Of a DNA stretch of 64,000 nt, positions 10,200-51,576 are shown piece after piece. The position numbers were made by a program, and so were the translations under genes. Below the pieces are notes generated by a model. It was given only the letters and a program-made list of their open reading frames with translations. It did not search any database and had not been told where the DNA came from. How positions within the stretch are numbered: position 1 is the stretch's first letter; every line of letters starts with the position of its first letter. Source of the stretch: Amaurobius ferox (taxonomy: Eukaryota; Arthropoda; Arachnida; Araneae; Amaurobiidae); contig OX578152.1 in assembly GCA_951213105.1 (NCBI GenBank), forward strand, positions 69,108,727-69,172,726. The letters run 5' to 3'.

Positions 10200-12775
10200 T
10201 CACTCACTTACTAGATCAATCAGCCGATCTTTTAACAACCGATCCCATATCTGCTGCCACTCTGTTTCTATCTCATCCAGATTTTTTTCACCCAGGTCTT
10301 TCTCATCTAGATCTTTTTCATTGATAACTTTCTCATTGAGATCTTTCTCATCGAGACCCTTCTCATCAAGAATTTTCTCGTTGAGATCTTTCTCATCGAG
10401 ATTTTTCTCATCCAGTTCTTCCTCACCGAGACCTTTCTCTTTCATATATTTCTCATCCAAATCATTATTCAGATCTGTGTTATCGAGATCTGCTTCATGA
10501 AGATCATTCTTATTGAAGTGTTCTTCATCAAGTTCTTTCTGAACGAGATTGTTCTCAATGTAATGCTTAACTTTCTGCCTGAAATCTTTCACACTTTGTG
10601 CATCTGATAAACCCCATTTCAAATACTGGGAAACAACTTCTGTGTCACCATCCCAAAGCAGATATGAAATTGTTCTTATAACAGAGTCACTAAACATGAT
10701 GTCTAATCTCAGCACACCGATTTCCTCTGGAGATACCTCAAACCACTCGAGAAAGAGGTCAGCATCCTGCCATTGTTTATAGTAAATCAAATCTAAATCT
10801 TGTACCACATCTACGTGAACATGTTTTTCAAGAAGTGTCTGTTTAAAAAGTTTCCTTTCCACCTCGGCGGGAAACACCCAACAGAGAATTTGCGACATTT
10901 TAGATATTAAATGATGGACATCTTTCCGCTCCCATAAACAGTTATCTATAATCATCCCACCAAGATAATGTATGTCTAAGACATTGAGCAGCTGTTCTTT
11001 ATATTGCTGTCGAGTACCTTCAGATGGCAAACACCATTCCAATATTCCATCCATACAATCAGTACCAAAATCCAATAGAATATAGAAAATAGCTAGTTGT
11101 GGATCCCAGTCTGAAGGACTTACATCAAAAGGGCGTTCCTTCGACAACGCATTCATGGACACCCCATTCTGCAGCAACACATTCCAAATTAGTCCAGTTT
11201 TGAAATCGCAAATTTCCTCATCTGAGAACCCCCCCCCCCCCCCCCCCAGTGCCCCAACAACGAATTTACGTACTGCCCATTCTCACGAGATAGAATCCAG
11301 AAACAGACCTCTCTTCCTTTGGTTGATAGCAAAAACTTTCTTTTTAAGTCAGTTATTTCCTCTTCCGATAGACAATAAGCTAATATCATGTCCAACATTA
11401 CATGACATTTGTTATTGATAAAATGGTAACAAAATATTGTTCCATTTTCATGCATAACTGACCTTTTTTCTTCCATTGTTGCGTATTGTAAGATATTATT
11501 AATAATTTCTATATTTTTATGCGTAAAAGGCCGTTTTTCTACAATATAGTGCAACATTCTAGAAGCTACATGCGTCGCAAATACATAGCGATGATAATTC
11601 TGTGGGGTTATTTTCCACAGCTCCACGAATAAGTATCCATAATTGTAATAATGAATCATATTTTTAAGGCCGTGGCTTCTATACTTTGTAAGTATATCCA
11701 ATAACAGTTCTCCATAGTGCCTTTCTGTTACAATGCCCCAAAACCTGTTGATAATTGTTATAAAATATTCCTGATAGGGAGATTCTAGAAAACAACCGAA
11801 TACTTTATTATAGCGATTGTAGCCAGGAAAGGATTTTAATACATTTTCATAAATTCCAGCCATTTGCTCCTGTGACATCTGCGATGCAAGGAAATACAAA
11901 ATACCGCTATAATGCTTTTCCATGGTGCACCAACATTTAGAATGATACACTTTATATCGACAGCATTCCATATAGGGGTCGTCCTTACTTCTTTGGATAA
12001 TGTTATATTCTGATAAAGCGCTTTGTGCAGCTTCAACAATGACTTTCTCCTTAGTACTGTCACTCAGTAAATTCCAGCAATAGACAACAGCTGTTCTCCG
12101 CCCTTCACTAATAGCATAATCAAGTCCATGTTCATAGAAAAGTTCACCACGTTCTATAAATTCTTCCAATCTCCCTGCCATACGGTAAGACCACAGAGTG
12201 ACTAAATTCCATTTCCTAAAAATCTCAGGGATGTGTTTATTTAAAAATTCCTCCCTAAGTACTGTCGGAATTTGATCCCACAGCGGACGAAGGCAGGGCT
12301 CCAGACAGTACAAACATGCTAACTCATATCGCATGGATACGGAGATCCTGTCATCTTCTACCAAGCGTTTTGCTACCTTTCGTTCGTTTATTCTTCCATC
12401 CATCGTCCAGTCTGAGCGGGTTAAAAACTGATCTTGAGCATGAGGAACCTTGGGAAGCCAAATTTCGTGTTCTGCGTTCCAGTCAAACAATCGAATGGCT
12501 ATTAACCAAATACGATCAATTAGACGCCCCTTTAATGTGCCCGGAAGCGTTTCGCATATGGAAGAATATTCTTCTATCAAATACTGTACTTTCAAAGGAT
12601 TCTCAAAACACTCTGGATGTACTTTGTTGTCTAGGATATGCTTCGCCAGTGGAAAATTATGACACACTTGAATGGCTAACCTCGTCAAGGTCAATTCTTC
12701 TAGTGAGGGCGGAGTTTTCATATAACCGCCAATCAACTTTTCTGAAAAAAACTCGTTACTTATGCTCATTTTCAA
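10200..12775 (-). CDS. Uncharacterised paralogue family member with pentapeptide-like tail; one frameshift at a 19-G tract
   Basis: I do not recognise the family. The 5' part (12775 down to 11189) encodes 528 residues. The 3' part (open from just after the G tract to the stop at 10200) continues the same protein in another frame. The break is a run of 19 G (coding strand) at 11229-11247. Right after it the other frame reads FSDEEICDF, matching the paralogue at 15.3-17.8 kb, so one gene is split by this tract. Compared with the paralogue the run has grown by about 11-12 bases; one more G, or two fewer, would keep frame. The joined product would be about 850 residues, intronless, with no signal peptide. 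The body is rich in charged and aromatic residues and is probably helical. The tail (10270-10530) holds about a dozen five-residue repeats of the form L-D/N-E-K-x. The start is the ATG at 12775 or the second at 12769 (MSIS), which the paralogue shares. Confidence 0.7.
10270..10530 (-). repeat. 15-bp coding minisatellite (pentapeptide-like repeats)
   Basis: Fifteen-base units, on the plus strand like TCATCGAGATCTTTC, are repeated in frame inside the gene and encode runs such as LDEKD, LNEKI, LDEKG. The five-residue spacing with a central Leu is reminiscent of pentapeptide-repeat proteins, but the typical A-D/N-L-x-x consensus is not met. Confidence 0.75.
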
Positions 12776-13720
12776 ATCTCCTTTTATTTATTTATTTTTA
12801 TTAGAAATCGGTTTAGAGGAGTCTGTCGTATCTGGATTATTGTGTTGTCTGGATGTACTGGTGGTCCTAAATGGGAAGGATTTAAGATTAAACGTTTATT
12901 TTGCTAACTTCTTCTTGCACTCACGGAGAATCATCTAAACTCTGCCTTTGGAGATTGAATCAGCAGGGAACTCCATATGATATCACTGCAAATAATTAAA
13001 AAAAAATCTAAAAATTTAAAAGTGTTACATTTTTTTTTTACCAGACCGTCCGGTTTACTCCAAAGTTTAGATAGCTAAAAAACGGTCTGCCAAACAATAA
13101 TTATATAAATTATATAAATTTATACATTCAAAACTTAACAGGAACTACATCAATATAGTACAAATAAGACGATCATACTATAGAAAATACTAAAATGAAG
13201 TATATAGATAGCAATAACAAAACAAAAACAATGAAGAGTAGAAAAGTAAAAATATTGAGTGTAAATTACAGGACTAAAAAGCAGAATTTAGCAAAGAAAA
13301 CCACAAACCAAAAGGAAATAAAATATAAAAATAAACACAAAACTGATGATCATATAAGAAGATTTTCAACAAATTAAAAAGACGCATTAGATATTATATG
13401 CAATATTAAAAAATATAGATTAGGAACATTAGCCGGAGATCACATTAAGAACATTACTAAATATTACATTACAATATTACTCGAAAATATTACATTATGA
13501 ATATTAGCCGGAGTGTACCAATTTTATAAATTCAAGATGATGACTAATATCAAAAGTAGGTTAAAAAGAGAGAAAAATATATAAGAAAGCCAGGGGCTCC
13601 AAAAAATAAAGAAAAAAAAATATTCCTCATCCATTTCTTCTGTAATTTCATGTGCAATGATAATATTACAGGTTTATTGCAAATAATTAATCGGGTTTAA
13701 CCTAGAATAAAGAACTTATC
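12776..13720. other. 5' flank of the minus-strand gene, AT-rich
   Basis: No gene recognised. The lysine-rich 60-codon frame at 13195-13377 is what chance gives in A-rich DNA. No promoter element could be assigned. Confidence 0.5.
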
Positions 13721-13795
13721 TGCCCCAAACGGGAATCGAACCCTGAATCTTCGAACTGGCCAGCCGACGCTCTACCGTTAAGCTACTGGGTCGGA
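13721..13795 (-). tRNA. tRNA-like sequence, probably a tRNA pseudogene or SINE head
   Basis: On the minus strand it has a good A box (TAGCTTAACGGTAGAGC) and a perfect B box (GGTTCGATTCC). The acceptor ends can pair at 6 of 7 positions (GACCCAG with TTGGGGC) and the D arm pairs fully. Against a working tRNA: the anticodon loop lacks U33 and the anticodon and T stems carry mismatches. Downstream on this strand is a segment with AATAAACCTGTAA that recurs in the opposite orientation near 14224, which fits a SINE body. Confidence 0.45.
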
Positions 13796-14662
13796 AATAC
13801 AAGCTCTAATTGTCAAAGTGAATTCTGCGAAGTCCTATATTTTCCAAGTTATGGATCGCACTTGTTCGTGATAATCAGGTAATAGAAGGGAATATCTCAA
13901 ACTTGGAAATTTTCGCCTTCAGATTTTCCCCTGTGACATACCAGGTGACAGCATGAGCAGCATTTCTAAAATTAGTGTCTTCTGCGCAATTTCACAGACA
14001 AAGATGTATTGCTACTTTGATGACCATCAACGCTGAGATGCTGATACATTTGTGGACCGAACTTCACTATCGCATGAACATATGTCGTGTAACGTGTGAA
14101 GTGTACATTTATAGTGTTATGACTAAAACTATGACAATTTTTAGTTCTTTTCGTATAGCACTCATTGTTTTATGCTTAATATTTTGCGAAATACGCTGTT
14201 TTGAGACCCGATGAATTGTTTGTAATAAACCTGTAAAAATTTTAACATTAGAAATGGAAGAATTAATATTATTAACTTTGGAGAACTGATGATCCTTATT
14301 ATAGCTGGACAGCTTTGATAAATGAAATTTCTTAGAATATGTGGAGGAAAAAATACAATGTTTGATATATTCGATAAAGATGCAAAGAGAGTATTGGGTA
14401 CTTTTAGTTTTTCGTTTATAGAGTTTATAGTTAGTTTATATTTATGCATTAAAAAGAAAACATTTGTTTTGAGTCGGCAGCGCATGCAATTCACATACAG
14501 CACTGTCATTACTTGTATTAGGCCAGTGATCTCCAACTTCGCCCAGTAGATGTATCATCCATTCCCTAGCTGCCTGAATAGAGAGCTAAGGGTGTCAGAG
14601 TTGGTTCGTGGGGCCAGCATAGGGAAATGATCAGATAGCAATATTTTGGGACTTCAAGGTGC
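13796..14662. other. Intergenic DNA
   Basis: No recognisable coding sequence. A block with TTTGTAATAAACCTGTAA near 14219-14237 resembles, inverted, the flank of the tRNA-like sequence at 13721-13795. Confidence 0.45.
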
Positions 14663-14893
14663 AAAAACGCTATACTAATAAACAAATATGTGATACAAAG
14701 ATTTCCATCCAGTGATTTAATAAAATATGCCTTTTGCTAACGATCATTGTTCCTTTGAAATTGCGTCGTTAATAACAGTAGAAAAGCTATACTAAGAAAC
14801 AAATATTTGATAGACGTATTTCCATTCAGTGATTTAGTAAGATATGTCACTTGTTAACGATCATTGTTCTTTTGCAATTATGTCGTTAATATG
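14663..14893 (+). repeat. Diverged tandem duplication, about 115-bp unit
   Basis: Two adjacent copies share GCTATACTAA, CAGTGATTTA and AACGATCATTGTTC in the same order, ending in TCGTTAAT. They are visibly diverged, so the duplication is old. Confidence 0.75.
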
Positions 14894-15199
14894 CAAGCAA
14901 AAGAACTTTCCTGATTGCGTTACTGATTGAGACGTCAGCATTAAGAAATTCTTCTTCAAATTCACATCTCACATTCTGGCGAAAAATCGTTAAAAATGTA
15001 GACTTCTTTGATTCCTGTTATTTAGTAACATCCACATGAAAAGTTTTCTAATTGAGCCTATTTTGAAAATAATTTATCCTGTACAAAATGGTAAGAATTC
15101 GTTTTTCCCATAAGCGTACATAAAATCTTTTATGTAACTTAAAAAAATAACAGTTTCTGATAAAATATATATATTATGTAGTGTGCCTTTGACAATCCA

Positions 15200-15308
15200 T
15201 TTTTATCAACCCATTCCATCTGCTCCAATTTTTGTCAACCCATTCCATCTGTTCCAATTTTTATCAACCTATTCCATCTGTTCCAATTTTTATCGACCCA
15301 TTCCACCT
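15200..15308 (+). repeat. 29-bp minisatellite, nearly four copies
   Basis: TCAAC/TCGAC markers recur at 15206, 15235, 15264 and 15293, an exact 29-bp period, with the core CATTCCATCTGTTCCAATTT. It lies just beyond the 3' end of the neighbouring pseudogene. Confidence 0.85.
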
Positions 15309-15310
15309 GT

Positions 15311-17768
15311 TTACCTCGCATCGATATCTTTATGATTGTGATATTTTTCATAGAGATCTTTCTCATACATCTGTTTCTCATCGACGTATTTTTCATTGAC
15401 ATCTTTCGCATCGAGATCTTCCCGAAGGTGAAAATGCTTGACGTCCTCATTGAAATTTTTTGCAGTTTGTGCATTTGACAGACGCCATTTCAAATACTGC
15501 GAAACAGTTTCTATGTCACTATCCCAAAGCAGGTCTGAAATTGTTCTTATCACATGCTCTTTATATATGAAGTCTGAACTTACCACATCGATTTCTTCTG
15601 GAGATAGCTCTAACCACTCGAGTAAAAGGTCGGCATTCTAACATTTTTTATAATAAACCAATTGTATCAGCACGTCTTCGTGAAAATATTTTTCAAAAAG
15701 TGTCCGCTTGAAAAGTTTTCTATCTATCTTGGAAGGAAATACTCAATTTAGAGTATTCAACATTCTAGATATTAAATACATGACATTTTTTTCCGCCGTA
15801 CATTTATATTTAATCTTAAAAAGATATTATATTTATCTAAAACGGTGATAAACTGTTCTTTGTATTGCTTTAGAGCGGTTTCAGAGGTCAAACACCACTC
15901 CAATATTCCATCCACACAATCAGTATAGGAGTCTTTCATTAAATAAGTAAGAGAAGAGCCCTTTGTGGATCCCACAACACAATGACATCAGAATAAAAGT
16001 GTCTGTTCAACAACCAATTCACGGAAACTCCACTCTCTAAAATCATACCCCAAATTAGTTTAGGCCTAAAATCAGAAATGTCCGCCTCTGGAAAAGCACC
16101 CCACCTCAACAACGAAATCAAATACTCTATTTTCTCCAGATACAGAAGCCAAAAACAGCTTTCTTTCCCTTTCCATGCTAGCAAAATCCACTTTTTAAAA
16201 TCAGTTACTTCCTCTTTTGACAAACACCAACCGGACATGATATCGACCTTTACATGATTTTTACCCTCGATAAAATAGTAAGAAAAAAGCAATCCATTGT
16301 TGTACATTAGTGATCTCCTTTCCTCCACTGTTGCGCGTTGCAAAATATTATGAATTGCTTCTGTGTCTTTATGAGTTAAGACTCGATCTCTTACAATGCT
16401 AACCATTTTAGGAACTAGCTGCGTCTCAAATAAATAGCGACAATAATTCTCTGGCGATATTTCACATAACTCTATCAATAAGCATCCACAATCGAAAAAA
16501 ATTTAACACGCTTTTAATGCCGTTGAAATCATACTTTTCAAATAAATCAAATAACAAACGATAATAGTGAATTTTTGTTAAAATGCTCCACAACTTGGTG
16601 ATAACTGTTATAAAATATCCCTGATTCGGAGATTCTAAAAAATAATCGAATACTTCACGTCGATATTCATCGTGCAGGTGAATTTATGAAATAGAATAAT
16701 TTGTTCCCCAGACATCTGTGATGCAAGAAAATACAAAATATCGCTATAATGTGCCTTCATGGTGCACCAATATTTTGAATGGAACACGCTATACTGACAA
16801 CACTTCCCACTCACTGTTTTCTCATTTTTCCATATGTGATTATATTCTGACAACACGCTCAGAGCAGCTGTAACAATGGTTTTCTGCCTCCTATTTTCGC
16901 ACATTGCAGCCCAGCAATAAACAACAGCTGTTCTCCGCCCTTCCTTAACAGCTTCCTCAAATCCGCGTTGCCAGAATAGGTCCTCAAACCTCTCTTCCCG
17001 TCTTCCTGCCATACGGTAAGACCACAGTCTGACTAAATTCGATTGCCTATAATTGCGATGGCATTGTTCCTTTAAAAACTTTTCCCGACGTTCTGCAGGA
17101 CATCGATTCCACAGAGGACGAATGTAGGACACTATAAAGTGCAAACATGCTAATTGATAGCGCTCTGATACTGGAATTTTATCATCTTTCACCAATCGTT
17201 CTGCTACCTGTCTTTCATTTATTCTTCCTTCTGCCGTCCAGTCTGAGGGGGTTAAAATCTGATCTTGAGGATGAGGAATCTTAGAAAGCCAATTTCTGTG
17301 TTCTGTGTTCCAGTCAAACAATCGAAGGGCTGTTAACCAGATACGATCAATAAGAGGCTCCTTTAGTGTGTATGGAAACTTCTTGCATATCGGAAAAAGC
17401 TCTTCTATCAAATATCTTTCTTTCATATGAATCTCAGTCCATTCTGGATGTAATACTCTATCGCATAGGGCCTCTTTCTTCCGAGAAAAATGATGACACA
17501 GCCGCTCCTTTAACGCATACTGCAGCGTCTCGCTCATGTAAGAATGTTTTTCTATCAGATCCCGTTCTTTTAAATGATTCTCAGCCCACTCTGAATATAC
17601 TCTGTCGTCAAGGATGTGCTTCGTCAGAGGAAAATGATGACACAACTGAATAGCTAACCTCGTCATGGACTGTTCTTTCAGTGAGAGTGGAGATTTTTCA
17701 TAACCTTTAATAAAATTTTCGGAGAGAAACTGGTCACTTATACTCATTTTCCTGATGTATTTTGTCAA
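15311..17768 (-). pseudogene. Paralogue of the 10.2-12.8 kb gene, broken by several frameshifts and stops
   Basis: The order of conserved blocks is the same as in the gene at 10200-12775: an MSIS start, TRLAIQLCHHFPLTKHILDD, LIDRIWLTALRLFDWNTEH, a GRRTAVVYCW motif, then ISPENYCRYLF, the LIWGMILESGVSVNW block and a short L-x-E-K tail near 15330-15420. The frame is lost near 16680, has stops near 16500, shifts again near 15960 and decays before 15590. Near the N-terminus it has an extra unit of about 50 residues: the HHFPLTKHILD...LKERL segment is followed by a second diverged copy (HHFSRKKEALCDRVLHPEW). The two loci are tandem, same strand, about 2.5 kb apart, so local gene duplication is likely. 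Confidence 0.8.
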
Positions 17769-41177: not shown

Positions 41178-41401
41178 GAAACGTTGTAAAGGTTGCACTG
41201 CCAAGTTACTCTGTGCGGGCCATCGAGGTAGTATTATATGGAGAGAGCTTAAGGGTTGCAATCATCGTCAAAGATAACGGCAGGTGTTGTACGGACGAAT
41301 TTCCAGAGAACGCGTTTCTCCCCACTGTGACCCTATACATTTCAATGGCAATTTCACACCGTGAGCGTACTCGAGAAATATAAATGGTAAAATAATGAAT
41401 G

Positions 41402-42933
41402 TGTTGGGTTGCTTTAGAATTTAGGTAATTTGGAGATTTGAAAATTTACTTTTATTTCTTTTTCCCTGGCTCAATATTCTTAATTTGGTAATATTTAAAT
41501 AATATTTATTGGCTTTTTCATTTATTCTTTAATTAGAATATTTTTAATCTTCTAAATTAATTTTCTTTATAATATTCTTAGTTAAAAATGTTCCATTCCT
41601 TAAATTAATATTACTTTTGATTTGCAAATTTTAGAAATTATTTATTTATTTGATTCCCCTTAAAATTCCCTTTAATTTGATATCCCATTTTCCCATTTTT
41701 GGTTAGAAATTCCGTTTGTTCTTCAGTTTCAAGTTATTTCCATGTCTCACTGCAATTCAAAAATTTCAGTTGCGGCCATTTTCGGAATTCTGTTTTGCGG
41801 GCTTTTTACTGCGATTAATAACGCCACCTAAGCGTTTTCGCGCCTCTTTGGAATTCGTAATTTTTTTTAATTGGTTCGCGTTTTTACGGATCGTCTGCTC
41901 TCGGAATTATGAGTATTATTTTGGCAATTCTAATTTCGGTAAGCGAATTTTAATTGCTGCCGTTTATCTAAACTCGCCCTTTTGCCGCACATATAAATAC
42001 GCGCGTAGAACTTTTCAGTTTGAGTTTTTTGTTGAAATCCTTCGTCGGTGTTAGCGCGAGAAGCGCGTTGTTTATTTTCGAATGGAACTTATGTTCCACG
42101 CGAGCTTTTAATGGAACGTTAAGTTCCTCGCGTTATTCTTTTTTTTCATTAGTTGTTTTAATTTAAATTATGCATTTTTCAAGCTTTTATCGTGGAATTC
42201 GCGACGTAACTCTCCAGAAAAGTACGTGGTGAAATTCCTTATGCGAGCTGCGTGAACGTAGTTTCTGACGAGGACGGCCGTTCTAAAAAGATCCGAGTGT
42301 TCCAGAAGTAGCTGTTAGGTCTGATCTCCTGAGTACTGATGTTTTTCAAGAAAATGCTGAAGCCTCTCCTGTTTCAAGTTTGGTGATTTCCAGTAAACCA
42401 GTTTTTCCAAAATCTGTGCAGCTCCAAAGATTGGAACTTCCCCCCCCCCCCCCTTGTCTGATGGCCCATCCGGGTGAATACACATGTTTTATTTAAACTC
42501 TTAATTTCTTTAATTCTGAATATGATTTCTTAATATTTTTGAAATGCATTTAATCAAAATTTATTCTGTAAATTTAAAATTCTAAACTTTATTCTGAGAG
42601 CAAATTTCTAAACCTTCATAAATTTTTAAGAGCCTGGGTTAAATTCTAAAATTATTTAAATTTAATATTTTTGTTAATGATTTTTTGATGGGATTTAAAA
42701 TAGATTGTTTTGAGTAAAGTTTTTATGTTAATTCCTTAATTTTAACTAAGTTGATAAAATTCTAATGTTAATTCTTCCTGAGTTGCCTGCCTGTGAGCAG
42801 TGTTTTTGTATTTGTTAATTTGAATTAATTTGAAGTACTATTTAATAAACTAATTTTCTTTAAACTAAATATTATGTCTTCATTTATCCTTTTTTAAACA
42901 CAGCAGGTTTTATTCTATCTGTCAAACACAACA
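41402..42933 (+). repeat. 5' LTR
   Basis: It begins TGTTGGGTTG and ends CACAACA, with inverted TGTTG/CAACA termini. A TATA-like TATAAATA lies at 41993-42000, after which a run of CG dinucleotides (ACGCGCG, TTAGCGCGAGAAGCGCG) stands out in the AT-rich surroundings. An AATAAA signal is at 42844-42849. A C tract of about 14 lies near 42440-42453. Confidence 0.97.
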
Positions 42934-42940
42934 GTAGTTT

Positions 42941-42950
42941 TGGTGCCGTG
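42941..42950 (+). promoter_or_regulatory. Primer-binding site, probably tRNA-His
   Basis: TGGTGCCGTG lies 7 nt after the LTR end. It is complementary to the 3' end (CACGGCA plus CCA) of eukaryotic tRNA-His, from memory of that tRNA. The match is 10 nt and then weakens. Confidence 0.65.
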
Positions 42951-43023
42951 TACCAGTCTAGAAATTGCTCTCATGTTTTATAATATTTATTAGTAGTATT
43001 AAACTTTCAATTGTATTGCAATT

Positions 43024-44466
43024 ATGGATGATGTTAGAGAAAGTAACTGTATGTATATTTCTGTATTTGGATCAGACGAAACTGGAGATGGCTCTAAAGA
43101 TAAGCCTTTTGAAACTTTATTATATGCAATGTTCTCTGTTGGTAAAGAGCCATTTCCTTCATTTCTCACAAATTCAAACGATGGTAAAGATTGGGATTTA
43201 ATTCCCAGAAGTCAGGTTGCTAGTACCAAGAAAACTTGGTTATCCTTACTGGAAAGAAATTTACCCTCTAAAATAAACATTGAGGCAACCTCTGATAATG
43301 TAAATTCTGTTTGTAACAAAAATATTGATTCAAATGTTAATAGTAAACAATATGACTTAAATGAACAGGGATTAAAAATAGATTCTTCTAAATGTAATGT
43401 AATGAGTAATTTTAAAACAGTCTCTTCAATAGGAGACTTTTTAGATTCAATCCCAGTGTTTTCAGGAGAGGAATCTGGCCTCCCATTAGAGGATTACATA
43501 GATAGGATTAAAATGTTAGCCGACCATGCAAATTGGTCAGAGTCAGACAAGGTCTTAGTTTTAAAGTTAAAACTGTCAGGCATAGCTGCAAGATTTATTA
43601 GAGATAATCCTAAGTTAAAAGAAGAGAAATCTTTCTCTCAAATTCTTAAAGCTTTACGCGACAGATTTTCCTCAATAGAATGTTTACACAGTAACTTGAG
43701 AGCATTTTTGCAAAGTTATCAGAGACCAAATGAATCTGTGCGTCAGTTTGCTGCCAGAGTTGAGGCTTCCTCATATAAAACTGTTTCACCTGCCTTACTG
43801 AATGACAGAGTGGCAAACCAGCAAAGACTTGATGTCTTGTGCTCGGTTTTCATTGAAGGCTTGAAGCCTCATTTCAAACGGCTAATCCTACCTCAAAACC
43901 ACAAGAGTTTTGACTCTGCAAAAAGGCATGCTGTGGCAGAGGAAGAGGTGTGGAGCAAGCAACATGGGGATGACCCCCAATATGTAATGAGTCTTGGTGA
44001 ATCTGAAAATAAGCAGCTCCATGATGAGCTTAAGAGAAATAGAATGGAGGTAGAGAACCTCACTAAAAGGCTTGCTGAGTTGCAAACTCAGATTAACACC
44101 AAACCACAGCTGCCTCAAACTAGAGTGACAAAGGATAGCCGAAGGTGTTTTTCATGTGGTCTATTAGGTCACATAAGTGTGGATTGTAGGAAATTTCCTC
44201 AATCACACAGGTTCAACAGAAATTCTAGGTCTCTACCTACTCGAATGTATCAACAACCTTTTTATTTTCCACAACCTACACAAATCAATCCATATAATTT
44301 TCCACAACAAACGCAGGGATTTCAACAACCTACTCAATTTTTTTACCATCAGCCAAATCAAAACTTTCAGCCTGACATTAATGAAACTAAACCTAAAATG
44401 AGTTACAACACTTTTTATACACCTAGGAGTGATAAAAATGACAGTGAAAAACAGAATTTAAACTAA
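43024..44466 (+). CDS. gag: Gag polyprotein with an N-terminal AsnRS UNE-N-like domain
   Basis: 480 residues; structural protein of the retrotransposon particle. Residues 10-72 carry GSDETGDG (16-23), KDKPF (25-29), VGKEPFP (39-45), W57-x-x-I60, SQ (63-64) and KK-x-W (69-72). In that order and spacing this is the conserved core of the N-terminal appended (UNE-N) domain of eukaryotic cytosolic asparaginyl-tRNA synthetase, not a normal Gag feature. A low-complexity Asn/Lys linker follows. Residues about 127-330 look like a gypsy capsid region (VFSGEESGLPLEDYIDRI, then LKLKLSGIAARF). A coiled-coil-like stretch precedes the CCHC zinc knuckle C375-x2-C378-x4-H383-x4-C388, which binds RNA. The tail is rich in Gln, Asn, Pro and Phe. 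The start is the first ATG, 90 nt after the LTR. The stop directly follows the frameshift heptamer. Confidence 0.92.
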   Translation: MDDVRESNCMYISVFGSDETGDGSKDKPFETLLYAMFSVGKEPFPSFLTNSNDGKDWDLIPRSQVASTKKTWLSLLERNLPSKINIEATSDNVNSVCNKNIDSNVNSKQYDLNEQGLKIDSSKCNVMSNFKTVSSIGDFLDSIPVFSGEESGLPLEDYIDRIKMLADHANWSESDKVLVLKLKLSGIAARFIRDNPKLKEEKSFSQILKALRDRFSSIECLHSNLRAFLQSYQRPNESVRQFAARVEASSYKTVSPALLNDRVANQQRLDVLCSVFIEGLKPHFKRLILPQNHKSFDSAKRHAVAEEEVWSKQHGDDPQYVMSLGESENKQLHDELKRNRMEVENLTKRLAELQTQINTKPQLPQTRVTKDSRRCFSCGLLGHISVDCRKFPQSHRFNRNSRSLPTRMYQQPFYFPQPTQINPYNFPQQTQGFQQPTQFFYHQPNQNFQPDINETKPKMSYNTFYTPRSDKNDSEKQNLN

Positions 44467-47400
44467 GTAAGGGTGAAGGGAGTTTTCACTCCAACTTACC
44501 TTCTGAGGCCCTTGGGGTGTTACCAGTGGTGCAAAATTCAAATTTGATTTCATTACAGAATTTGTCTCTACCAGTGATTTCTGGTATGATAAATAATGTT
44601 GATATTCCTATACTTATTGATTCTGGTGCTTCTATTAATGTGTTGTTTACAAATGTATTATCTCATTTAAATATACCTGACAGTCAATTAACTAAATGTA
44701 ATATAAATTTAAAAGGCATCTCTAGTGATATTATAAAAGTTTCCAAAAAATTAAATATTAATTTAAATTTAAATAACAAAATATTTAATGTTGATTTTTA
44801 TATTATGGACTGTGATTCTTGTAATTATTCAGCAATACTTGGTGTGAAATTTTTAAAGGGTTATAAGATGTCAATAGATTTTAGTAATAATGTTTTATAC
44901 AATAATATTGTAACTGTGCCTTTTGCAATTAAGGATGAATCTGTACCATTTTCATTATCTAATGCAACTCAATTCTTTAATAATTATGAAATTAACAGAG
45001 AAAATACTTTGAATTCTGAAAAATATAGGGATAATTTGTGCTATGCACTTAGGAAATACACAATTCCTCCTCTATCGGAGGCTTTCATACAACTAAAATT
45101 AAAAGAGATTGTTAAATTTAATTCACCTACTGTGATGATTGAGCCTTTAAACAACAGTAAAATTCTGGTCGCTAGATCAGTAAATAATGTATCTAGATCT
45201 AATATATATAATGTAAAAGTATTGAATTTGTCAACTGATGAGTTGCACATAAATAAGCATTCAAATTTAGCAAAAATTGTTCCTATCACAGTAGTATCTT
45301 CCTTTTCAGTTAACAATATTACTGAGTCAAGTGCAGAGAGTGGTGATAATTTTGATGTTTGGGGAGGAAATTTTGATCTTTCACACTTAGACTATAATGA
45401 AAAAAGACAAATAGAGAGTTTAATTAATGATTATAAGCATATTTTTGCTAATTCTATTCCAGATTTAAAGGGGTGTGATACAGTTTTTCATAACATTAAC
45501 TTAAAAGATGATATTCCTGTTAAACAGAAACCTTATAGAGTTCCTTATCATGTAAGAGATGAATTAGATAGACAAATTAATGAGCTTCTTGAAAATGACA
45601 TTATACAAGAAAGTGATTCACCATTCTCCGCACCTGTACTGTTTGTTAAAAAGGCAGATGGAACATTAAGATTAGTAACAGATTTTAGAAAATTAAATGA
45701 TAAAACTATTGATGATATTTTTCCACTGCCAAATATCACTGAATTGATTGATAGTTTAAGTGGTGCGAAATATTTTTCTACATTAGACTTAACATCTGGA
45801 TTTTATCAAATGAAATTGCACCCAGACGACACACACAAATATGGCTTTTCTACACCTTTTGGCCACTATGAATGGAAAAGAGTCCCTTTTGGTTTGAAAA
45901 ATGCCCCCAGCTCCTTTCAACGACTTATGTCCATCGTCCTAGCTAAACTTTCCCCTTTACAAATTTCTATTTACATAGATGATATTGTTATTGCATCTAG
46001 AACCTTTGAGGAACACTTAATGAAATTAAAGGTAGTATTTGATAGATTATCTCAACATAAATTATGTTTAAAGCCAAGTAAATGCAATTTTTTTAAATCT
46101 TCAATAAATTATTTGGGTTTTCAAGTTTCTGAAGGTATTGTCCAGCCTGACCCCTCAAATTTAAAAACTGTTAAAAATTTTCAAAAACCCACCTCTAAAA
46201 AACAAATTCGCCAATTTTTAGGATTAACTGGTTTCTACAGAAAATTTATTGAAAATTACTCCTTAAAAGCTCTTCCCTTAACTAATTTAACTAAGCAAAA
46301 TATTAAATTCTCTTGGACCCCTGAAGCAGAAAATTCTTATCAAACCTTAAAATCCGAATTACTTAAAGAACCCATTTTACATCTCCCTGATTTTTCAAAA
46401 CCGTTTTCGGTATGTACCGATGCATCAAATTTTGCTCTTGGAGCAGTTCTCTGTCAAGAAGGAGAGGATGGATTTTTGCACCCTATTGCTTATGCTAGTA
46501 AAAAACTAAAAGATGCAGAAATAAACTATAGCACAGTCGAGAAAGAGACTTTAGGAGTTGTCTGGGCAACATCCTATTTTAAGCAATACCTTTTGGGAAA
46601 ACATTTTACTGTTTATTGTGATCAGGCCTCCCTTTCAAATGTTTTGAAATTAAAAGACCCCACTTCTAGGATAGCACGGTGGATAATGTCCATGACCCAG
46701 TTTAATTACAAAATTATTCATAAACCTGGTCGCCTAAATTTAACAGCTGATTATCTATCTAGATGTGTAAATAATGTAACAGTAAACACTATAGACTTGG
46801 ATGTTGATACAAACCTTCTTTTAAGAGTACGTAATTCTCAAAATTCTGACCCTAATTGTATAAGAATTGGCTCATGCTTAGATAAAAATATTGACCCATT
46901 CCCTAAAAATTTAATGTTTTTCTTAAAAGATGATGTATTATATTGTACTAATAGGAAACCTAAATTAAAATATCAAAGAAAAGAGCGTATTGTTGTTCCA
47001 CAAAATTTGATCTCTGATATTCTAAATTATTGTCATGATTCGATCACTGCAGGACATGGTGGTTTTAGAAGGACTTTGAGGAAAAATCAGCAACACTTTT
47101 ATTGGCCTAGGATGTATGTTCAAATTTTAAATTATGTTAAGAGTTGTCCTGATTGTTTACAGAAAAGAGGATTTAAACAAAAGCAAAAAGCTCCTTTACA
47201 GAGGTTTCCAAATTCTACTTACCCTATGGAAAGAATAGCTATGGATTGTATTGGCCCCATGCCTCTAACTTACTCTGGCAATAAGTACATACTGGTGATT
47301 ACGGACTATTTTACTCGTTGGCCAGAAGCTTATGCTATCCCCAATATTAAATCTGAAACTATTTTAAATTGTTTAGAAAACTTCTTTTCTCTTCATGGTG

Positions 47401-48176
47401 TGCCAAAACACATTATCACTGACAAAGGATCTAATTTCATTTCGAATGCTGCCATGAAGTTGTATGAAAAATTAGGTATTGAAAAACATACCACTACTAG
47501 CTATCACCCACAATCAGATGGAGTTTGCGAGCGTTTAAACAGTAAAATAATTAACACACTTAGTCATTTAGTGTCTGAAACACAAGAGGATTGGGATCGA
47601 CATTTATCTTTTGCCTTGCTGGCCCACCGAACTTCAATCCATTCCTCGACTGGTGAGTCTCCAGCTAATCTTCTCTATGGTAGAGAATTAATTTTGCCAC
47701 ATCATCTTCTTTTTAATTTAAATGAACAAAATTTTACCACTGTTAGTGACTATAGTCAGGATTTGGCAATTCGTATGAAAAAATCTTTTGAAATAGTAAA
47801 GAAGAACTTACTTAAAGCAGCTAAAACACAAGAGACATACAGAAATAAGTCTGCTGTTTTAAAAGATATAAAAGTTGGAGATTTAGTATATTTATACATT
47901 CCTGTTTTTCCAAGAAGACATTGTAAGAAACTCTCCAAACTTAATAAAGGTCCTTTTAAAGTTATACAAAAAACATCTAATGTAAACTTTAAAATTCAAC
48001 ATGTAAATGACACACGAAATATTCAGTTGGTGCACATTGACAGATTAACAAAAATTCCAGAAAGAGATTCTGTGTTCTTTTTTTGTGCACAATCTGATAA
48101 TTCAGCAAGTAATACATCTCATGAGAATGATATAATTCCAACACAAAGATATAATTTACGACAAAGGAAAAACTAG
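44448..48176 (+). CDS. pol: Pol polyprotein (protease, reverse transcriptase, RNase H, integrase)
   Basis: The frame has no ATG near its beginning and is expected to be made as Gag-Pol by -1 frameshifting at 44457-44463. Residues are counted here from the GTG at 44517. Aspartic protease: DSGA 35-38. Reverse transcriptase: LDLTSGFYQ 423-431 and the YIDD active site 486-489. RNase H: TDAS 634-637, with DYLSR 745-749 at its end. Integrase: zinc-binding H840, H847, C877, C880, catalytic D910, D969, E1005 (35 residues between the last two), then a GPF-containing C-terminal region, no chromodomain, ending RYNLRQRKN. The domain order is Ty3/gypsy. No stops or frameshifts were seen and all catalytic residues are present, so the element may be active. 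Confidence 0.96.
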   Translation, partial: KTEFKLSKGEGSFHSNLPSEALGVLPVVQNSNLISLQNLSLPVISGMINNVDIPILIDSGASINVLFTNVLSHLNIPDSQLTKCNINLKGISSDIIKVSKKLNINLNLNNKIFNVDFYIMDCDSCNYSAILGVKFLKGYKMSIDFSNNVLYNNIVTVPFAIKDESVPFSLSNATQFFNNYEINRENTLNSEKYRDNLCYALRKYTIPPLSEAFIQLKLKEIVKFNSPTVMIEPLNNSKILVARSVNNVSRSNIYNVKVLNLSTDELHINKHSNLAKIVPITVVSSFSVNNITESSAESGDNFDVWGGNFDLSHLDYNEKRQIESLINDYKHIFANSIPDLKGCDTVFHNINLKDDIPVKQKPYRVPYHVRDELDRQINELLENDIIQESDSPFSAPVLFVKKADGTLRLVTDFRKLNDKTIDDIFPLPNITELIDSLSGAKYFSTLDLTSGFYQMKLHPDDTHKYGFSTPFGHYEWKRVPFGLKNAPSSFQRLMSIVLAKLSPLQISIYIDDIVIASRTFEEHLMKLKVVFDRLSQHKLCLKPSKCNFFKSSINYLGFQVSEGIVQPDPSNLKTVKNFQKPTSKKQIRQFLGLTGFYRKFIENYSLKALPLTNLTKQNIKFSWTPEAENSYQTLKSELLKEPILHLPDFSKPFSVCTDASNFALGAVLCQEGEDGFLHPIAYASKKLKDAEINYSTVEKETLGVVWATSYFKQYLLGKHFTVYCDQASLSNVLKLKDPTSRIARWIMSMTQFNYKIIHKPGRLNLTADYLSRCVNNVTVNTIDLDVDTNLLLRVRNSQNSDPNCIRIGSCLDKNIDPFPKNLMFFLKDDVLYCTNRKPKLKYQRKERIVVPQNLISDILNYCHDSITAGHGGFRRTLRKNQQHFYWPRMYVQILNYVKSCPDCLQKRGFKQKQKAPLQRFPNSTYPMERIAMDCIGPMPLTYSGNKYILVITDYFTRWPEAYAIPNIKSETILNCLENFFSLHGVPKHIITDKGSNFISNAAMKLYEKLGIEKHTTTSYHPQSDGVCERLNSKIINTLSHLVSETQEDWDRHLSFALLAHRTSIHSSTGESPANLLYGRELILPHHLLFNLNEQNFTTVSDYSQDLAIRMKKSFEIVKKNLLKAAKTQETYRNKSAVLKDIKVGDLVYLYIPVFPRRHCKKLSKLNKGPFKVIQKTSNVNFKIQHVNDTRNIQLVHIDRLTKIPERDSVFFFCAQSDNSASNTSHENDIIPTQRYNLRQRKN
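44457..44463 (+). promoter_or_regulatory. -1 ribosomal frameshift site TTTAAAC
   Basis: The heptamer is in the correct phase (AAT TTA AAC then TAA stop in gag). A -1 slip leads into the pol frame, which is open from 44448. Downstream RNA can fold: GTAAG (44467-44471) with CTTAC, GTGAA with TTCAC, and AAGGG with CCCTT near 44509-44513, allowing a stem-loop or pseudoknot. TTTAAAC is among the most efficient known slippery sequences. Confidence 0.85.
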
Positions 48177-49202
48177 AATGACATTTTTTTTATTTTATTG
48201 TTGCGCAACATAATTTTTTTTCAAGTGTATAATTTTTGTATGTGTGTATTTGTTATTGATACATTGCAGAATGCTGCAAACTGGATTTAATTGATGTTGA
48301 TTTTAAGATAAAATTTGTTATTGTTGTTATTGATATTGCAGATTACTGCAGGATTTAAATAAATGATTGAGAGAAAAGATTAATTTGGATTATATGAATT
48401 GATGATAATATTTATAGATAGAGATATATTGTTACTTATTTATTGTTATTGAGTGCAGATTTCTGCAAATATTTAATTACGTGGTCCATGACGTAAGTTC
48501 TGATCACATATGTTGATATTTTTTTTGGTATATATTTGATGTCGGTAAAAGTATTAGAGTTCTGCAAAGATAAAAGGGCAGTGTATATAAGATAACTTCA
48601 GAATACAGATGATATTGTTTGGTTTTGAATGGACATGAATAGATACTTGTGTCTTTGAAATTTTAGTATATCATTGTTGCTTATTGATAATAATTGTTAT
48701 TGTGTCAATTGTCATTTGACACTTCTATTGAAATTTTATTTATTTTATACAACTTATGTACATTGTTTTACTTTTTTAGATCACTCTATTTACACATTTT
48801 TTTTTTCTCTTTCCAGCTGGTATTTATTTATATTTTGTAGTGGAAGTGAGAGTTGTTTCTCATTGGTTATTTAAGGTACCTTTTCAAAATTCAATGTTTC
48901 GATTCTTTGAAAACTATTTGGCTGGTCCAATGTTTTCTTAAAAATTTATTTTTATTATTAGCTAATGAGAATCAATGTCAAATCCTCTACCTTTACTTTT
49001 GTCTACACAAATTTAGTGATCTGATGTACAAAAATTTATTCATTATATAATTCTTGTTTTAGTCTATAGTTTGTTAACAAACTGCTTATTCCGAAATAGA
49101 GGTTGAATTCGGATAAAAATTGCTATACTTAAATTGATAACTTCTGATAGATATTTTATTTTTATTATCAAAAATTTTTCATTTTTCAAATGAAAAATTT
49201 TT
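48177..49202 (+). other. Retrotransposon noncoding region between pol and the 3' LTR
   Basis: About 1 kb without an open frame longer than 66 codons, so no envelope gene. It contains three near-identical 14-bp imperfect palindromes of the form TGCAGA-N2-CTGCA at 48265, 48337 and 48454. Confidence 0.8.
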
Positions 49203-49220
49203 GGGGGATAGGTGGAAGGA
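49203..49220 (+). promoter_or_regulatory. Polypurine tract
   Basis: GGGGGATAGGTGGAAGGA, almost all purine, ends 3 nt before the 3' LTR; it is the expected plus-strand primer. Confidence 0.8.
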
Positions 49221-49223
49221 ATG

Positions 49224-50753
49224 TGTTGGGTTGCTTTAGAATTTAGGTAATTTGGAGGTTTGAAAATTTACTTTTATTTCTTTTTCCCTGGCTCAATATT
49301 CTTAATTTGGTAATATTTAAATAATATTTATTGGCTTTTTCATTTATTCTTTAATTAGAATATTTTTAATCTTCTAAATTAATTTTCTTTATAATATTCT
49401 TAGTTAAAAATGTTCCATTCCTTAAATTAATATTACTTTTGATTTGCAAATTTTAGAAATTATTTATTTATTTGATTCCCCTTAAAATTCCCTTTAATTT
49501 GATATCCCATTTTCCCATTTTTGGTTAGAAATTCCGTTTGTTCTTCAGTTTCAAGTTATTTCCATGTCTCACTGCAATTCAAAAATTTCAGTTGCGGCCA
49601 TTTTCGGAATTCTGTTTTGCGGGCTTTTTACTGCGATTAATAACGCCACCTAAGCGTTTTCGCGCCTCTTTGGAATTCGTCATTTTTTTTAATTGATTCG
49701 CGTTTTTACGGATCGTCTGCTCTCGGAATTATGAGTATTATTTTGGCAATTCTAATTTCGGTAAGCGAACTTTAATTGCTGCCGTTTATCTAAACTCGCC
49801 CTTTTGCCGCACATATAAATACGCGCGTAGAACTTTTCAGTTTGAGTTTTTTGTTGAAATCCTTCGTCGGTGTTAGCGCGAGAAGCGCGTTGTTTATTTT
49901 CGAATGGAACTTATGTTCCACGCGAGCTTTTAATGGAACGTTAAGTTCCTCGCGTTATTCTTTTTTTTCCTTAGTTGTTTTAATTTAAATTATGCATTTT
50001 TCAAGCTTTTATCGCGGAATTCGCGACGTAACTCTCCAGAAAAGTACGTGGTGAAATTCCTTATGCGAGCTGCGTGAACGTAGTTTCTGACGAGGACGGC
50101 CGTTCTAAAAAGATCCGAGTGTTCCAGAAGTAGCTGTTAGGTCTGATCTCCTGAGTACTGATGTTTTTCAAGAAAATGCTGAAGCCTCTCCTGTTTCAAG
50201 TTTGGTGATTTCCAGTAAACCAGTTTTTCCAAAATCTGTGCAGCTCCAAAGATTGGAACTCCCCCCCCCCCCCCTGTCTGATGGCCCATCCGGGTGAATA
50301 CACATGTTTTATTTAAACTCTTAATTTCTTTAATTCTGAATATGATTTCTTAATATTTTTGAAATGCATTTAATCAAAATTTATTCTGTAAATTTAAAAT
50401 TCTAAACTTTATTTTGAGAGCAAATTTCTAAACCTTCATAAATTTTTAAGAGCCTGGGTTAAATTCTAAAATTATTTAAATTTAATATTTTTGTTAATGA
50501 TTTTTTGATGGAATTTAAAATAGATTGTTTTGAGTAAAGTTTTTATGTTAATTCCTTAATTTTAACTAAGTTGATAAAATTCTAATGTTAATTCTTCCTG
50601 AGTTGCCTGCCTGTGAGCAGTGTTTTTGTATTTGTTACTTTGAATTAATTTGAAGTACTATTTAATAAACTAATTTTCTTTAAACTAAATATTATGTCTT
50701 CATTTATCCTTTTTTAAACACAGCAGGTTTTATTCTATCTGTCAAACACAACA
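49224..50753 (+). repeat. 3' LTR
   Basis: Near-identical to the 5' LTR, including the TATA-like and AATAAA signals. Differences include GGAGATTTG/GGAGGTTTG, GTAATTT/GTCATTT and TATCGTGG/TATCGCGG. Confidence 0.97.
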
Positions 50754-51576
50754 GTTATGTACTGTTGTAATTACGGCTGCAAGTAAAAGCATGTACAAGG
50801 AGGGCTTTACTCTTTTCATGGATAACATTTGTTTTCATTATATATCTTACAAATATAGTTAAAAAGTAATTGTGCTAGATTTTAGCGTGGTGCACTTCAT
50901 TTGGCTATTAATTTCATTGCTTTTAATGCTGTATAATTAGAAGTTTTGCTTTATTTTTGGTGTTTGTGATATTGCAAAAGACTTATAATGTCATTCTAAC
51001 ACTTTAAAAAAACATTTGGAGTACTTTGCTGATAGTTATAGAGTTATTTTCGGTATCCTCGTATGTTTTCCCTTCGAGGTAGAACTTGGCGACGGTTGGC
51101 GACTCACAAGATTGGGTGGCTAGGGAGGAAAAATGGGAGTTTTAACGAGAGTAAAGACGTGTCGTAAGATAAAATTTTACGTTCATAAAATATAATAATA
51201 GTTTACATTCATTGAAAATGTCAGCTAGATTTCACATCATAACTTTTCGGTGCATTTTAGATAAAGATATATGAGCATGATCTCATTTCTAGTTCAGAGT
51301 AAATCGTACTTAATAAGTATTACTAGTTAGCATGGACGACCCTAGGGGATGACAAGGGAGCACTTCAAAATCACAAAGGCGGACATCAAACTAGTCGATG
51401 TTGTTAATCTTATCCTTGAATCCCACCGGATAAATTCTATAGGTGCCGATGCTGGTTAGAATTAATTTCATATAAACATCTCGATTAAAAAGATATATTT
51501 TCCCCCGTTCACAAATTAAAAATCAAAGGATGTATCACCAAACTCCCAGTGTTTTCAAGAAGTATTTTGGAATTAC
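50754..51576. other. Intergenic DNA
   Basis: No gene recognised. Confidence 0.5.

Follow-up and report, generated by a model that had tools for sequence, protein, structure and literature searches.

An N-terminal Gag domain related to the UNE-N domain of asparaginyl-tRNA synthetase in a Ty3/gypsy element of the spider Amaurobius ferox

Introduction

The Gag protein of a Ty3/gypsy retrotransposon in the spider Amaurobius ferox begins with a domain (residues 9-77, positions 43048-43254) that sequence searches confirm as homologous to UNE-N (Pfam AsnRS_N), the N-terminal domain of eukaryotic cytosolic asparaginyl-tRNA synthetase (AsnRS). The element spans 41400-50753 of a 64,000-nucleotide (nt) stretch of contig OX578152.1, referred to throughout as the window. 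We consider it probable, taking the explanation as a whole, that the domain was captured from a host gene, has been retained, and docks Gag to a host protein. Its parts differ in strength: identity, capture and retention are jointly very likely, with the route of capture and the action of selection reconstructed from the sequences, and protein docking as the function of the domain is put forward tentatively from the pattern of residue changes. The bases of the account are homology, the same fusion in two Gags from two sources, its absence from two related Gags, and unequal conservation along the protein.

Identity of the Gag N-terminus

The first-pass annotation of the window had assigned Gag residues 10-72 (43051..43239) to UNE-N, and profile searches of the Gag N-terminus against AsnRS N-terminal models bear this out. 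Pfam AsnRS_N (PF20917) scores 33.2 bits (E 7.1e-8) against the whole protein and 35.4 bits (E 1.4e-8) against its first 100 amino acids (aa), with a cut-off of 27 bits, and is the only Pfam family at E<=1 for these 100 residues. A search of PDB sequences with Gag yielded five sequences at E<=10, headed by human UNE-N 4zya (E 1.3e-14) and human AsnRS 8tc8 (E 2.8e-13) and followed by weak matches to Brugia 2kqr (E 0.016) and Schistosoma 8fa3 (E 0.018); the fifth is an unrelated chain at E 1.2. When residues 1-100 were used in a protein search, 12 proteins emerged from 38 candidates: 11 with AsnRS architecture, including seven from named snails and bees, and one other Gag, P0001, which itself scores 35.5 bits against AsnRS_N. 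One bee AsnRS is identical to the Gag domain at 31 of 59 positions with one gap (BLASTP). A profile built from 11 AsnRS N-termini gives the window Gag 65.3 bits and P0001 70.9 bits, compared with 0.3 and -1.2 bits for two related Gags, P0013 and P0014, and 6.1 bits for the best shuffle (898 reported among 1000).

The match to AsnRS_N does not run the whole length of the profile but stops at positions 54-57 of 91 in both Gags, and the Gag domain is, on this alignment, a truncated relative of AsnRS UNE-N. A low-confidence structure model gives it the order strand-helix-strand-strand-helix. No anticodon-binding or catalytic AsnRS domain appears among the Pfam families of Gag at E<=1, and the protein is not a synthetase.

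Specificity of the two halves

Separate searches confirm that each half of the Gag domain matches AsnRS independently. For the second half alone (residues 38-80), the only PDB matches at E<=10 are to human AsnRS (E 8.8e-5 and 0.0016); its profile score is 21.2 bits, whereas shuffles reach at most 8.2 (1667 reported among 2000). Several observations weigh against the assignment. The first half, with the motif YxS..GSDxTGDGxxxxP[FY], is not specific to AsnRS and also occurs in 67 loci selected by this motif, 14 in viral and 53 in prokaryote contigs; of three such loci searched against Pfam, one has a DUF1565 match exceeding the cut-off and two have none; and the second half on its own (residues 38-100) falls below the Pfam AsnRS_N cut-off at 12.7 bits (E 0.17). 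The first two of these points would suit a Gag N-terminus that did not come from AsnRS but arose by chance or from a GSDxTGDG cap as found in bacterial beta-helix-like proteins. Against the 11-AsnRS profile, however, no motif locus scores above 34.4 bits, far from the scores of the two Gags, and none of their best stretches extends past position 52 of 88; DUF1565 is not among the Pfam matches of Gag at E<=1. Together with the second half, whose PDB matches are AsnRS only, the whole-domain profile scores led us to disfavour this origin, to which we assign a very small probability.

We also observed that the first half in a slightly longer form, YxS..GSDxTGDGxxxxP[FY]xxxxxA (43024-43134), is very similar to a segment of proteins from bacteria and archaea (loci L015, L016, L017 and L051); shared origin and convergence could each account for the likeness.

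Probable capture and retention

The second Gag, P0001, has 480 aa and comes from another public source ('lgn'), where its contig is 2421 nt long; it may belong to the same or another species. Its sequence differs from that of the window Gag, but the junction between AsnRS_N and Gag is the same. This bears on the possibility that the fusion is an assembly chimera of the element with a NARS exon of the host, which the window by itself could not exclude: the reading frame is continuous across the junction and, because a different Gag from another source has the same fusion, such a chimera is extremely improbable. The two related Gags P0013 and P0014, which are 50% and 47% identical to the window protein over residues 130-400, start just before the capsid region, and neither Pfam nor the 11-AsnRS profile finds AsnRS_N in them. 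Since UNE-N occurs in human, Brugia and Schistosoma AsnRS (PDB) and in snail and bee AsnRS (protein search), a host AsnRS gene is the likely source. We propose that, in a Ty3/gypsy ancestor, gag was extended at its start by an intronless 5' coding segment from a host cytosolic AsnRS gene, which encodes the globular UNE-N domain. In Gag, as in AsnRS, the domain comes first, and it is free of introns; both features are compatible with acquisition from the 5' portion of a NARS mRNA. The likeliest route would be entry of this mRNA during reverse transcription.

Retention is read from the comparison of the window Gag with P0001, in which gap columns (1, 0, 3, 0, 0, 0 and 2 by part, from N- to C-terminus) were excluded. 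Identity is 3/7 for residues 1-8, 61/69 for the domain (9-77), 28/51 for the linker (78-128), 186/192 for the capsid region (129-320), 45/52 for the coil (321-372), 17/19 for the zinc knuckle (373-391) and 68/87 for the tail (392-480). The difference between domain and linker has a Fisher p of 4.7e-5, which is descriptive only, because the boundaries were chosen once the alignment was known. For this one protein pair the figures suggest retention of the AsnRS_N domain at a level similar to that of the coil and knuckle and lower than that of the capsid; the domain would have been maintained since capture, and the joining linker would have drifted. That the domain was taken from a host gene and then retained, as had been proposed for this element at the outset, is in line with its absence from P0013 and P0014 and with its conservation relative to the linker.

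Both Gags also keep the same 25 of the 38 AsnRS columns that are conserved in at least 10 of the 11 sequences. These include T20, aligned with T17 of human NARS1, and passages of PMC7424529 report lower NARS1 protein and activity in patient cells with T17M. A captured piece that has seemingly been kept probably does something for the element. It might instead be a passive passenger, a folded and harmless N-terminal cap that persists since translation starts in it and the reading frame passes through it. The basic roles of Gag lie in the capsid and zinc knuckle, P0013 and P0014 manage without UNE-N, and retention is judged from a single protein pair, a further point against our account; the 25 retained core columns and the contrast of the domain with the adjoining linker make a mere passenger improbable.

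What the domain may do

The UNE-N domain occupies the place where retroviral Gags carry matrix. We suggest that it may be a folded module by which Gag, and with it the particle under assembly, docks through protein-protein contact on either AsnRS itself or a host partner of UNE-N, in place of direct tRNA binding. The 13 changed columns of the AsnRS core include four of the seven conserved basic ones (K30, R37, K66 and K67); K62 is replaced by R and two of the seven are retained, in both Gags alike. The lysine pair that follows KSQ (or KAQ) in 11/11 AsnRS is A-S in both Gags, so that the conserved lysines are absent. The segment following KSQ was reportedly linked to tRNA binding by Frugier in 2000. 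Over 68 aligned residues the net charge is -3 in the window Gag and -5 in P0001, compared with +3, +4 and +2 in the three of the 11 AsnRS for which it was computed. In those three AsnRS the 40 residues past the conserved W also carry a net negative charge, and the unmatched end of the AsnRS_N profile therefore supplies no argument about charge. Because the core is kept while basic residues are lost, we read the residue changes as favouring protein docking over tRNA binding.

The first-pass annotation had moved from UNE-N to tRNA binding and, as speculation, to a role in bringing tRNA into particles, a step that is weakened by the change of KK to A-S, the net negative charge and the unmatched profile end. 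In its fuller form, this alternative would have the Gag domain keep an RNA role, binding tRNA or element RNA directly and loading primer or genome into particles. According to part of PMC12513289, UNE-N may help to anchor AsnRS on tRNA, and the matrix of human immunodeficiency virus (HIV) type 1, in the same Gag position, binds tRNAs and the multi-synthetase complex (passages of PMC9967848). Gag also has K69, K70 and W72, and human AsnRS likewise has KK before its W. The loss of four of the seven basic columns in both Gags and the charge difference from AsnRS point the other way, as do the unmatched positions past 54-57 (which say little about charge) and a primer site that we take to be unlike the end of tRNA-Asn; altogether we regard an RNA role as unlikely.

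A further alternative, by analogy, is that particles of the element take in AsnRS, alone or complexed with tRNA, such that gene capture would hard-wire what HIV does with lysyl-tRNA synthetase (LysRS). The Gag N-terminus carries a domain of the synthetase itself, but the primer site seems to resemble tRNA-His and not tRNA-Asn, and no sign of UNE-N binding to itself or to the AsnRS body emerged from analyses that were not aimed at it. HIV-1 packages LysRS, which interacts with Gag or GagPol (passages of PMC9967848). The odds are in our view clearly against such recruitment. Slightly less doubtful, but still a speculative analogy, is the broader notion that Gag might use the synthetase N-terminal domain to enter the synthetase network of the host and raise the local concentration of Gag, AsnRS or tRNAs at sites of particle formation, as a genetically fixed counterpart of the recruitment by binding seen in HIV.

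Published accounts of UNE-N disagree. Passages of PMC7424529 call it a domain of unknown function that is not thought to act directly in charging, and an interaction with CCR3 has been reported, as cited in part of PMC7014954. It is labelled mammalian-specific in PMC7424529 and eukaryote-specific in PMC12513289; our PDB and protein search matches (human, Brugia, Schistosoma, snails and bees) agree with the latter. If the domain acts, the element would test the purpose of UNE-N, a domain of unknown function in part of PMC7424529, as well as the extent to which retroelements rely on synthetases when particles assemble. As a natural, enzyme-free UNE-N core from which the lysine pair after KSQ is gone, it would separate protein docking from tRNA binding.

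The element and its surroundings

The coordinates of the element are collected in Table 1. An alignment of the two long terminal repeats (LTRs) has 9 substitutions and 2 gap columns (identity >99%), which makes the insertion recent; gag and pol are both open, and the view of a young element put forward initially stands. With paired LTRs, gag followed by pol, and a pol domain order in which integrase lies after RNase H, it has the organisation of a Ty3/gypsy LTR element. The equally early claim that the domain precedes a capsid and zinc knuckle is supported by a match to PNMA (PF14893) over Gag residues 154-272 (Pfam) and by a C..C....H....C pattern visible in the translation, although the knuckle scores below its Pfam cut-off. 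The 10-nt primer-binding-site-like sequence seems to correspond to the 3' end of animal tRNA-His, and is presumably unlike that of tRNA-Asn, as the first-pass annotation had it. RNA downstream of the TTTAAAC heptamer folds no better than shuffles (z -0.48), and the window list of open reading frames (ORFs) has none of 150 aa in the approximately 1 kb between pol and the 3' LTR. No target-site duplication was found when 41385-41399 and 50754-50768 were compared, the flanks TGAA and GTTA being different; perhaps recombination between copies explains its loss.

Table 1. Features of the Ty3/gypsy element (positions in the window)
Feature	Position	Strand	Remarks
5' LTR	41400..42933	+	1534 nt, TGT...ACA; aligned to 3' LTR
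Primer-binding-site-like TGGTGCCGTG	42941..42950	+	starts 7 nt past LTR; read in sequence
gag ORF	43024..44466	+	480 aa; ORF list and Pfam
UNE-N / AsnRS_N domain, Gag residues 9-77	43048..43254	+	Pfam, PDB and profile searches; 61/69 identical to P0001
Linker, Gag residues 78-128	43255..43407	+	poorly conserved: 28/51 against P0001, 3 gap columns omitted
Capsid-like region, Gag residues 129-320	43408..43983	+	boundaries set by us; 186/192 identical to P0001
CCHC zinc knuckle, Gag residues 374-390	44143..44193	+	Pfam 18.9 bits, below cut-off 20.8
TTTAAAC heptamer, in the phase of a -1 frameshift site	44457..44463	+	directly 5' of gag stop codon
pol frame, -1 relative to gag	44448..48176	+	open from 44448; protease, reverse transcriptase, RNase H, integrase
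Mostly purine stretch, polypurine-tract-like	49211..49221	+	read in sequence, 5' of 3' LTR
3' LTR	49222..50753	+	1532 nt

Elsewhere in the window, neighbouring long ORFs lie on the minus strand at 10200-17768, and at least two look by eye like copies of one host gene, with similar starts and a cysteine-rich middle; the four tested from this region have no Pfam family above cut-off. A marginal tRNA match lies at 13721-13792 on the minus strand (Rfam 30.7 bits, gathering 29), where ARAGORN finds none.

Comparison with known systems

Set beside AsnRS UNE-N (PF20917; 4zya, 2kqr, 8fa3), the Gag domain is collinear over about 60 residues with few gaps, as in the 31/59 alignment with a bee AsnRS. Unlike UNE-N, it has no synthetase body, is acidic, has lost the KK after KSQ and leaves the profile unmatched past positions 54-57 of 91. 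Among Ty3/gypsy relatives, P0013 and P0014 resemble the window Gag over residues 130-400 but have no AsnRS_N. Pieces of P0015, a gene model from the spider Stegodyphus dumicola, are 39% identical to the window Gag and 46% to its Pol; its N-terminus matches an endonuclease family, unlike the AsnRS_N of the window Gag.

LTR elements occasionally gain extra domains, including a chromodomain and a DnaQ-like exonuclease (passages of PMC6338049) and others (part of PMC9289625). None of the titles and abstract starts listed from open-licence PMC texts, a set outside which most subscription papers and all preprints lie, mentions a retrotransposon Gag with an aminoacyl-tRNA synthetase domain. The nearest precedent that we have read is the AlkB domain of orchid Ty3/gypsy elements, an m6A demethylase: there too, according to passages of PMC9289625, a gypsy element has gained and maintained a host-type domain, but as an enzyme in a separate ORF and in plants, whereas the domain here is not an enzyme and forms the N-terminal part of Gag itself. 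HIV-1 offers the other parallel, since its Gag is tied to aminoacyl-tRNA synthetases (LysRS and the multi-synthetase complex) and makes contact through the N-terminal matrix; matrix binds the complex via EPRS in an RNA-dependent manner (both in passages of PMC9967848). HIV binds host synthetases as partners (the same passages of PMC9967848), whereas in the spider element part of a synthetase gene, recognised from its sequence, would lie inside gag.
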